Below, piece by piece: positions 5,544-8,552 of a stretch of DNA of 64,000 nucleotides. The DNA lies in the NCBI GenBank assembly GCA_007693595.1, contig REDI01000034.1:1-64000 (forward strand), read 5' to 3'. The notes under the pieces were generated by a model. That model did no database searches, was not told the origin of the DNA, and was given only the letters and a program-made list of their open reading frames with translations. The DNA comes from Deltaproteobacteria bacterium. Its GTDB lineage: Bacteria > Myxococcota_A > UBA796 > GCA-2862545. Numbering within the stretch: position 1 is the first letter of the stretch; each line of letters begins with the position of its first letter. The position numbers and the translations under genes are program-made.

Positions 5544-6404
5544 CTAGCCGAAGATATTCATCGGCATCCGCAAGTACCGGATCCCGTTCGTATCCGCCTC
5601 CGGGAGGTGCCCCGCGTCGATGTTCACCTGCACCGACTGGAAGATCAGGTTGGGCGGACGCAGGGTCTTGTCCCTCTCCGACCTGAACTTCACGAAGTCC
5701 TCGCGGGAGCGGCCCGCGGGGAGCTGAATGTTCTTCTGCTTGCTCTCGCCGATCGTGGTCTCAAACTTGAGCTCGCGGCCGTTGGGCATGTAGTCGTGAC
5801 CTACGAAGACGCGGGTCTCATCGGGCAGGTGGTAGAGCTTTTCGTGAATGCTCTCGTACAGGTCCTCGGCGCTGCCGGCGGGGAAGTCGCAGCGCCCGGT
5901 GCCGAAGTCGGGCATGAACAGCGCATCGCCGGTGAACACCGCGTCGTCGATGAGGTAGCTCACGCAGGCTGGGGTGTGGCCTGGGGTGTGGATCACCTTG
6001 ATCTTGAGAGAGCCCGCGTCGAGGGTCTCGCCGTCGCGGACGAGGCGCTCGAACTGGCTGCCGTCGGTCTTGAACGGTTCGGGTAGGTTGAACACGCCCT
6101 TGAAGGTCTCTTGGACGGTCTGGATGTGCTCGCCGATCATCACGGGCGCACCGTAGCGCTCCTTGAGCCACTGAGAGCCCGAGAGATGGTCGGCGTGGGC
6201 GTGAGTCTCGAGGATGGCGTGTAGCGTGAGCTCGTGCTCGTCGAGGAAGGAGGCGACGCGCTCGTTCGAGGCGGTGTTCGTAGAGACCGCCAGAGGATCA
6301 TAGTCGAGCACGGGGTCGATGACGACCGCGTCGCGGGTCTCCTCGTCGTAGACGACATAGGTGAGCGTCCAAGTGGCGGGGTCGAAGAAGGTCTCGATCT
6401 TCAT
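5544..6404 (-). CDS. Persulfide dioxygenase-like metallo-beta-lactamase-fold protein (ETHE1/Blh type)
   Basis: A 286-residue MBL-fold protein. It shows THAHADH (His68, His70, Asp72, His73), a second-shell [12 protein letters not shown] (His143) and the acid FTGD (Asp160), the ligand set of the ETHE1/Blh branch. The [12 protein letters not shown] and VFVGHDY blocks are typical of Blh-like persulfide dioxygenases rather than glyoxalase II. These non-heme iron enzymes oxidise glutathione persulfide to sulfite, detoxifying sulfide-derived sulfane sulfur. No rhodanese or sulfide:quinone oxidoreductase gene is adjacent. AGGAG lies six bases before ATG 6404, and a sigma-54-type promoter and a palindrome lie further upstream, suggesting inducible expression. 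Confidence 0.88.
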
Positions 6405-6441
6405 GGGGTACTCCTGAGAGCCGAAAGGTGCTGTCGATGTA

Positions 6442-6460
6442 TTTGCAAGCGATGTGCCAA
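6442..6460 (-). promoter_or_regulatory. Sigma-54 (-24/-12) promoter of the persulfide dioxygenase gene
   Basis: Minus-strand TTGGCACATCGCTTGCAAA matches the RpoN consensus TGGCAC-N5-TTGCA at every conserved base, with GG and GC ten bases apart. It points at the dioxygenase gene. A start near 6433 would give a leader of about 30 bases containing AGGAG. No comparable sigma-70 element is evident in this 111-base gap. Confidence 0.8.
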
Positions 6461-6496
6461 GCTAACTCTCTAGGATAGAGCGCCACAGGCGGCCCA

Positions 6497-6520
6497 ACTG
6501 AAACATACGAATGTTTCAGT
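6497..6520. promoter_or_regulatory. Perfect 10-bp inverted repeat, candidate activator site for the sigma-54 promoter
   Basis: Arms ACTGAAACAT and ATGTTTCAGT are exact reverse complements around an ACGA spacer. The centre is about 75 bases upstream of the predicted RpoN start, a plausible enhancer position. It overlaps the stop codon of the pabA-pabB gene. A terminator role is less likely because no T-run follows on the minus strand. Binding by a FisR-like sulfane-sulfur-responsive activator is an inference from the target gene. Confidence 0.55.
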
Positions 6521-8552
6521 CAGAGCGGTCTGGTTCACCGCGAAATAGCGCGGCCTGCAAGACCTCGCCCTTGAGGCAGGCCTCGCGCCACTCGGCCTCG
6601 GGGCACGATAAGGAGGTAATCGCTCCTCCAACACCGACTTCGGTGGCCTGCTCGGTGAGGACGGCGGTGCGGATCACCACCGCGAGCTCTGCGGCGCCGT
6701 CGAAGGAGATCCAGCCGAGCGCGCCGCCGTAGGGGCCGCGGGGTGAGGGCTCCAGATGGTCGAGGATCTCGAGGGTGCGGTGCTTGGGCGCGCCGGTCAT
6801 GGAGCCGGGAGGGAAGGCGGCGAGGAGGGCGTCCCAGACGTCGGCGTCGGGGCGGAGCTGACCTTGGATGGTGCTCACGAGCTGATGTACGGTGGCGAAG
6901 CGCTCGACGGCCATCAAGCTCGGGACCTCGACGCTACCCCAGGTGCAGACGCGACCGAGATCATGACGGATCAGGTCGACGATCATCAAGTTCTCGGCGC
7001 GCTCCTTCTCGGAGGTGGCCAGGGCGTGGGCGGCCCGATCGTCATCGCTCGGATCGGCCTGACGGGCGGTGGTGCCCTTGATGGGTCTGGCGGTCAGCAG
7101 ACCCGTGGCGTTGGCGGAGAGGAAGAGCTCGGGGGAGGAGGAGAGGATCGTGAGGTCTTCGAGCTCGAGGAAGGCGCCGAAGGGTGCGGGGTTGGCGGTG
7201 CGCAGCCGACGATACGCGCTGAGAGGGTCGCGCAGCCGGGGTCCACGGAGACGTTGGGTCAGGCAGATCTCGTAGCTCTCGCCCTCGATAAGGGCTTCCT
7301 GGGCCCTGCGGATCTTGTCGAGGTAGGACGATCGAGGCAGCTCAGGGCGGAGCGCGCCGGGCTCGGGAGGGGTCGAGGGACGAGGTGGAGGCGGATCGCT
7401 CAGTCGGTGCGCCAGGTCGTACAGGGCGGGGCGCGGATCGGCATCCTCGGGCACCACCACGCCGATCCAGGCCTGGCCGGTGTCGTGATCGATGGCGGCG
7501 AAGCGATCGCAGAAGACCAAGGCGAGGTCGGGGACGCCAGAGGAGGCCGGCGGGGGAGGGGGATCCTCGCGGGACTCGTGGCCGAGGTATCCGACCCAGC
7601 CTCCGCGAAAAGAGAAGGGGACGGGGGGCGAGGAGGCGCGCACGCGCGGGAGGCGGAGGTAGTCCCAGATGGAGCCAAGAAGGGGCTCAGGGGGCTGACC
7701 AGGGCGCTGCGTCGTCGCACCATCGCCGCGGTGAAACCGTAGGATATGCCCAAGATCGCCGTCACCCGCCCCGATCAGGCTGAACCGCGAGGGGTTCGCG
7801 CCTTGTCGGCCGCTGCTGTCGAGCCAGAAGGCGCCGTGTCGGCCCGCGAAGGCGTGGAGGAAGGCGGCCTCGGGGTCGAGGGGGGTCTCCAGACGGCGCA
7901 TCGCGAGGCGAAGGGGCCGCCCTTTGGGAGCTGGTGGGCGAGCGGCGGCCGGTGCGGGGACCGCGTGAAGGCGAGCGCGCCCGGTGAGGCGCAGGAAGGC
8001 CTCGACCATCTGGGCGCCATGGGGCGTTCCGATGGACTCCGGGTGAAACTGGACCCCGACCCGGAGCCGGCCGAGCTCCCGGACGGCCATGACCGCACCC
8101 TGCGGATCGCGCGCGCTGACGTGGAGGTCCGAGGGCAGGGGCTCCTGGGCGACGAGGCTGTGGTAGCGCACGACGGGCAAGCCTTGAGGAAGGCCGGAGA
8201 AGATCCCCAGGGCGTCGTGCAGCAGGGGGGTGATGCGCCCATGCATGGGCTGTGCACCTCGCCTGATCGCGCCACCGAGCTGCCAGATCAGTCCTTGATG
8301 CCCCAGACAGATCCCGAAGATGGGGCGGTCGAGCTCCGCCAGGATCCGGGCTGAGAGGCCGAGGTCTCGGGGTGTTCCAGGGCGACCTGGGCCCGGCGAG
8401 ATCACGACGACATCGGGGTCGAAGCGCTGAACGTCGTCGAGGTCCCAGGCATCGTTGCGCACCACCTCGGGCGCGACGCCCGCGACGCTCGCGAAGAGGT
8501 GGGCGACGTTGAAGGTATAGCTGTCGTAGTTGTCGACGAGCAGAATGCGCAC
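6516..8552 (-). CDS. pabAB: Aminodeoxychorismate synthase, PabA-PabB fusion
   Basis: A 678-residue fusion. Residues 1-190 are the class-I glutamine amidotransferase (PabA), with SPGPG, GICLGHQG (Cys82) and FHPES (His170, Glu172), so the triad is intact. A Pro/Ala linker follows, then the chorismate-binding PabB domain with PIKGT and PPGSMTGAPK. The Lys in PIKGT is the mark of aminodeoxychorismate synthase rather than anthranilate synthase (PIAGT). It makes 4-amino-4-deoxychorismate for folate synthesis. No pabC (lyase) or trp gene is adjacent. The gene is followed on the same strand by the persulfide dioxygenase, which has its own promoter. Start ATG 8552 opens directly on the conserved ILLVDNYDSYT. 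Confidence 0.95.
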   Translation of the reverse strand: MRILLVDNYDSYTFNVAHLFASVAGVAPEVVRNDAWDLDDVQRFDPDVVVISPGPGRPGTPRDLGLSARILAELDRPIFGICLGHQGLIWQLGGAIRRGAQPMHGRITPLLHDALGIFSGLPQGLPVVRYHSLVAQEPLPSDLHVSARDPQGAVMAVRELGRLRVGVQFHPESIGTPHGAQMVEAFLRLTGRARLHAVPAPAAARPPAPKGRPLRLAMRRLETPLDPEAAFLHAFAGRHGAFWLDSSGRQGANPSRFSLIGAGDGDLGHILRFHRGDGATTQRPGQPPEPLLGSIWDYLRLPRVRASSPPVPFSFRGGWVGYLGHESREDPPPPPASSGVPDLALVFCDRFAAIDHDTGQAWIGVVVPEDADPRPALYDLAHRLSDPPPPRPSTPPEPGALRPELPRSSYLDKIRRAQEALIEGESYEICLTQRLRGPRLRDPLSAYRRLRTANPAPFGAFLELEDLTILSSSPELFLSANATGLLTARPIKGTTARQADPSDDDRAAHALATSEKERAENLMIVDLIRHDLGRVCTWGSVEVPSLMAVERFATVHQLVSTIQGQLRPDADVWDALLAAFPPGSMTGAPKHRTLEILDHLEPSPRGPYGGALGWISFDGAAELAVVIRTAVLTEQATEVGVGGAITSLSCPEAEWREACLKGEVLQAALFRGEPDRSD

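Follow-up and report, generated by a model that had tools for sequence, protein, structure and literature searches.

The 64 kb stretch of DNA analysed here (the window) contains a persulfide dioxygenase (PDO) gene that is preceded by a sigma-54 promoter and, farther upstream, by a perfect inverted repeat (Table 1). The predicted product of the gene has the metallo-beta-lactamase fold and belongs to the larger (type II) persulfide dioxygenases; it aligns nearly end to end with PDB entries 9g8t and 4ysk, the latter, over residues 2-282, being a protein that we take to be P. putida PDO2. The human ETHE1 protein (4chl) is a more distant match. The metal-site residues are intact, and the THAHADH motif, H143, D160 and H203 are invariant across 11 relatives. 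A second PDO gene, of the ETHE1 type, is found on contig C12 of the same genome, with no obvious sigma-54 site. No SQR gene lies beside the PDO gene of the window, and none was found elsewhere in the genome with a single query, which is a weak test. The gene upstream, read in the same direction, encodes a fused PabA-PabB-like protein and is not considered part of the circuit described below. At the beginning of the window, the plus-strand open reading frames 49-1068 and 1007-2296 overlap and share one 339-residue end, which marks a direct repeat of roughly 1.2 kb, either genuine or an artefact of the assembly.

Table 1. Position of the PDO gene, its neighbour and its predicted control elements in the window
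Feature	Position	Strand	Remarks
Type II PDO gene of 286 codons	5544..6404	minus	Lactamase_B; full-length match to PDB 9g8t and 4ysk
Likely ribosome binding site, AGGAG	6411..6415	minus	read from sequence
sigma-54 promoter, TGGCACATCGCTTGCA	6459-6444	minus	exact consensus; kept before PDO genes of relatives
sigma-54 promoter elements	-24 element 6459-6454; -12 element 6448-6444	minus	
Predicted upstream activator site, two TGAAACA half-sites	6497..6520	none	perfect 10-bp inverted repeat; centre at about -75
Fused PabA-PabB-like aminodeoxychorismate synthase gene, upstream and co-directional	6516..8552	minus	outside the circuit

A pattern search located TGGCAC-N5-TTGCA with zero mismatches 39 bp 5' of the PDO start codon (ATG at 6404), which bears out the full RpoN consensus that an earlier, sequence-only reading of this DNA had placed upstream of a PDO-like gene. 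The site has GG at -24 and GC at -12 at the correct spacing and RpoN is encoded in the genome, as expected of a sigma-54 promoter. Taking C6445 as -12, transcription is predicted to start at about 6433, giving a leader of about 29 nt. This is the sole match in the window with one mismatch tolerated, shuffled sequences averaging 0.92 such matches, and the whole genome contains 14 exact TGGCAC-N5-TTGCW sites versus 6 for the reversed control pattern. A good sigma-54 site is frequent upstream of PDO orthologues of the same genus, family and order: the site of a same-genus orthologue (74% identical protein) is TGGCACGACGCGTGCA, and TGGCACGCCCTTTGCT and TGGCACGTAGTTTGCT are found before the PDO genes of further relatives. 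Among 80 wider relatives, taken from named records, sites scoring at least 12 are present in 18.8%, versus 2.9% of random stretches from the same loci. The sigma-54 promoter is therefore a property of some lineages and not of every PDO gene.

The inverted repeat, ACTGAAACAT-N4-ATGTTTCAGT (in full, ACTGAAACATTCGTATGTTTCAGT), is centred about 75 bp 5' of the predicted transcription start, without mismatch and at the distance given in the earlier reading. A scan for other copies, which that reading had proposed, returned none: the palindrome occurs once in the 4.9 Mb genome, even when up to three mismatches are allowed. An assignment of the repeat as a terminator was discarded, since no T-run follows it and no terminator was called. 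The stop codon of the PabA-PabB-like gene (6516-6518) falls inside the palindrome, whose predicted RNA fold is stable (-22.8 kcal/mol, z -3.8), and the repeat might thus act at the RNA level, as a hairpin terminating or protecting the pabBA-like transcript, with no role in PDO control. We regard this as very improbable, as relatives have the half-sites before other genes as well and in other contexts, often in arrangements that are not hairpins.

Loss of the palindrome in relatives that keep the promoter, which the sequence-only reading had named as evidence that would speak against its proposal, was indeed found for the perfect palindrome, but not for the half-site TGAAACA. The predicted conserved unit is the half-site, which varies in number, spacing and orientation, whereas relatives do not share the perfect inverted repeat; TGAAACATATCGAAACA, TGTTTCATagccTGTTTCAT and GTTTCATGAAAC are among the arrangements of relatives that differ from the palindrome. 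An unprejudiced word count covered 33 sigma-54 promoters, those of PDO genes or adjoining the REG-type regulator described below, each with 170 bp of upstream DNA; TGAAACA ranks first among all 7-mers (15 of the 33 promoters, versus 0.25 expected from dinucleotide shuffles). Likewise, TGAAAC precedes 10 of the 23 PDO genes with a sigma-54 site, versus 5 of the 80 without one (Fisher p = 7e-5). Among the 14 exact sigma-54 sites of the genome, all of which were checked, a single one has TGAAACA within 180 bp upstream, and it is the PDO site. Some promoters are at odds with this pattern: TGAAACA is missing from several sigma-54 promoters of PDO genes, from the REG-yeeE promoter of this genome and from the REG-SulP promoter of a same-genus genome. 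The two regulator-adjacent promoters of this genus are those at L130 (G000:C43) 7162 and L166 (G001:C43) 6133, and most relatives have the half-site. A TGAAACA located 17 bp before the start codon of REG was left out of the count because it overlaps the Shine-Dalgarno region.

The genome contains 13 strong matches to sigma-54 activators, REG and 12 others. REG (443 aa, minus strand, L130:7225-8556) is encoded on contig C43, in agreement with the earlier observation that the regulator is absent from the window, and the genome scan for a FisR-like activator suggested there identified it as a relative of FisR. It is composed of a PAS domain, a Sigma54_activat domain (229.6 bits), an AAA lid and an HTH_8 domain (49.3 bits), and it is the best match in this genome for 9 of 9 activators encoded near the PDO genes of relatives. 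Directly after REG there is a sigma-54 site, AGGCACGGGCCTTGCA, followed by a Sulf_transp (YeeE/YedE) gene and a DUF6691 gene. The orthologues of REG adjoin genes for ETHE1-type PDO, type II PDO, YeeE-DUF6691, rhodanese and SulP permease, and in one case a TsdA-like cytochrome gene; many of the genes beside them are preceded by sigma-54 sites. We consider that REG is probably the regulator of the PDO gene in the window.

In Acinetobacter baumannii, fisR (A1S_1707) is found with A1S_1708-1711, and the sulfide induction of these genes is abolished in its absence (PMC7315123). Among the plasmid-collection matches listed, the top bit score for REG belongs to an A. baumannii activator that is divergent from genes for an MBL-fold dioxygenase, an SQR-like protein, a TSUP transporter and a homoserine dehydrogenase. 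This divergent layout is the published fisR arrangement (PMC7315123), and the activator is taken here as FisR. When FisR was compared with the genome studied here, REG was the best match (301 bits; the next reached 229) and the match was reciprocal within this genome. Quick trees built on the AAA+ and HTH part place REG, the PDO-linked activators and FisR in one cluster separate from other activators (SH-aLRT 99, and 93 with more activators), which also includes two Enhygromyxa proteins. The fisR-pdo intergenic DNA of A. baumannii contains ATGTTTCACAATCGTTTCATTGAAACATACTTGAGTTTCATAGAAACAT, then TGGCATCTTATTTGCA, and the spacing of its TGAAAC-N8-GTTTCA equals that of the window palindrome. On a plasmid of Acinetobacter junii, the FisR layout and the half-sites are kept, with an activator that is devoid of most of its N-terminal domain. 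N-terminally reduced relatives of FisR were observed at L250 4956-5939 and L251 5001-5924, on plasmids of A. junii and A. haemolyticus; that of A. junii is accompanied by pdo, sqr, tauE and cytochrome bd genes, and near that of A. haemolyticus a partial pdo gene is left, with an IS6-type transposase nearby.

The recognition helix of these activators is found in two types. In promoters picked by hand, TGAAAC is present upstream of the sigma-54 promoters neighbouring activators with SR.T(F/L)WR (Trp-type) in 23 of 27 cases, versus 0 of 10 for activators with SR.TLYR (Tyr-type), a difference (p = 3e-6) to be read with caution, as all Tyr-type activators form one branch and represent one evolutionary event; TGAGAC occurs in 1 of the 27 and in 5 of the 10, respectively. 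Helix type and half-site type change together, which supports direct binding of the DNA site by the activators. This covariation within the REG/FisR family, together with the agreement of FisR and of all nine PDO-linked activators of relatives in pointing to REG, speaks against a further explanation, in which the sigma-54 promoter is genuine and the palindrome is bound by another protein, either a repressor or a different sigma-54 activator. The 12 further activator matches in the genome would offer candidates for such a protein, and the absence of the half-site from the promoters next to REG in this genus is also consistent with it, but on balance we find it unlikely. Some details of the Tyr-type loci may be added: TGAGACA or GGTCA..TGACC takes the place of TGAAACA before PDO, yeeE and SulP genes at L187, L194, L186, L236, L238 and L241, and in genome G028 a second activator, divergent and with six cysteines in its N-terminal region (L194 10956-11789, minus strand), adjoins the Tyr-type activator, between PDO genes.

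The conserved sigma-54 site, the top-ranked half-site, the presence of a FisR relative and the half-sites of A. baumannii all agree with the FisR-type sigma-54 control that the sequence-only reading had predicted. Such control of this PDO gene is thus well supported by the combined evidence from the half-site, REG and A. baumannii FisR, as far as sequence comparison can indicate it.

The PAS domain of REG contains four cysteines, C61, C67, C70 and C74. The C61/C67 pair (Cys-x5-Cys) is retained in 15 PAS-bearing members of the family, C67 alone is found in four PDO-linked Myxococcota-type forms, and many members have nearly no N-terminal domain. Cupriavidus pinatubonensis FisR senses via three cysteines, according to a review (PMC9774590). 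Those cysteines are missing from A. baumannii FisR (PMC7315123), whose N-terminal domain has no cysteine at all. The Cupriavidus protein was sought in 60 and then 299 Ralstonia-family genomes and none was found at the first cut-off; the two matches obtained at a second cut-off were rejected as FisR because they are NtrC-type response regulators. In the lineage of REG, C61 and C67 could plausibly form a thiol switch, but this is no rule for the whole family. The cysteines missing in A. baumannii FisR and the reduced N-termini indicate that the sensing chemistry is not common to the whole family, which leaves some room for REG to control the PDO gene in response to a signal other than sulfane sulfur. 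Sulfide, sulfite or some other redox signal might serve, or the PAS domain might contain a metal centre, which the four cysteines of REG could hold. Nevertheless, the targets predicted in the various genomes are genes for PDO, rhodanese and sulfur transport, and the Cys-x5-Cys pair is kept in 15 PAS-bearing members, so that we rate a different signal as rather unlikely, if clearly worth keeping in mind.

These elements can be assembled into a circuit. Sigma-54 RNA polymerase would read the PDO gene from its exact-consensus promoter, which would be opened, using ATP, by the FisR-family activator REG bound, as we infer, to the TGAAACA half-sites of the palindrome. The signal would be sulfane sulfur (persulfide or polysulfide), whose reaction with PAS cysteines C61 and C67, and perhaps with C70 and C74, would switch REG on; the PDO would then clear the inducing persulfide. 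REG would probably also drive the adjoining yeeE/DUF6691 sulfur-transport pair. The promoter, the half-site with its conservation, and the presence and family of the regulator were computed here. For the circuit as a whole, with REG acting at the half-sites, sulfane sulfur as the switch and the yeeE pair as a second target, we estimate a probability of roughly 0.78.

The general mechanism is known already. What is new is the lineage, in which the regulator is unlinked and carries a cysteine-bearing PAS domain, and, on the predictions made here, the TGAAACA site and its change alongside the recognition helix. FisR-type control of persulfide removal would thereby reach a lineage with mostly Myxococcota among its relatives, with a likely regulator named; no paper on sigma-54 and PDO in Myxococcus came up in a literature search. 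Similarly, no description of a FisR DNA site was found in the accessible literature, and TGAAACA is now a concrete candidate for the family. The sensors found in the family comprise four-cysteine PAS, two-cysteine PAS, single-cysteine and cysteine-free domains, and some members with nearly no N-terminal domain. The occurrence of several sensor types, and of nearly sensor-free members, over a single conserved output bears on a question raised in PMC7315123, namely by what means FisR of A. baumannii detects sulfide when it lacks the Cupriavidus cysteines. The chances seem even that FisR represents a broad family, extending from Myxococcota to Gammaproteobacteria, in which TGAAACA, the sigma-54 promoters and the sulfur-detoxification targets were kept, the sensor was exchanged or dropped, and, in one branch, a Trp-to-Tyr change in the helix turned the half-site towards TGAGACA.

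Regarding the known systems, C. pinatubonensis FisR resembles the proposed circuit in the sigma-54 control of sulfide-oxidising genes and in its cysteine-bearing sensor (Li et al. 2017, as summarised in the same review, PMC9774590), and its three cysteines may have counterparts among C61, C67, C70 and C74 of REG. The BigR-controlled yeeE/yedE-pdo2 operon of A. baumannii likewise combines YeeE/YedE transport with a second PDO, but it is governed by an ArsR-family repressor, whereas sigma-54 promoters and an activator are found here (PMC7315123). The closest counterpart, the A. baumannii FisR system, shares with the present one the same activator branch and a sigma-54 site with TGAAACA half-sites before a PDO gene. 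In A. baumannii, however, the regulator has a cysteine-free N-terminal domain and is divergent from a pdo-sqr-tauE operon (PMC7315123) that encodes SQR and a PDO of the ETHE1 type, whereas here a type II PDO gene on its own is the predicted target and the regulator, encoded on another contig, carries a four-cysteine PAS domain.
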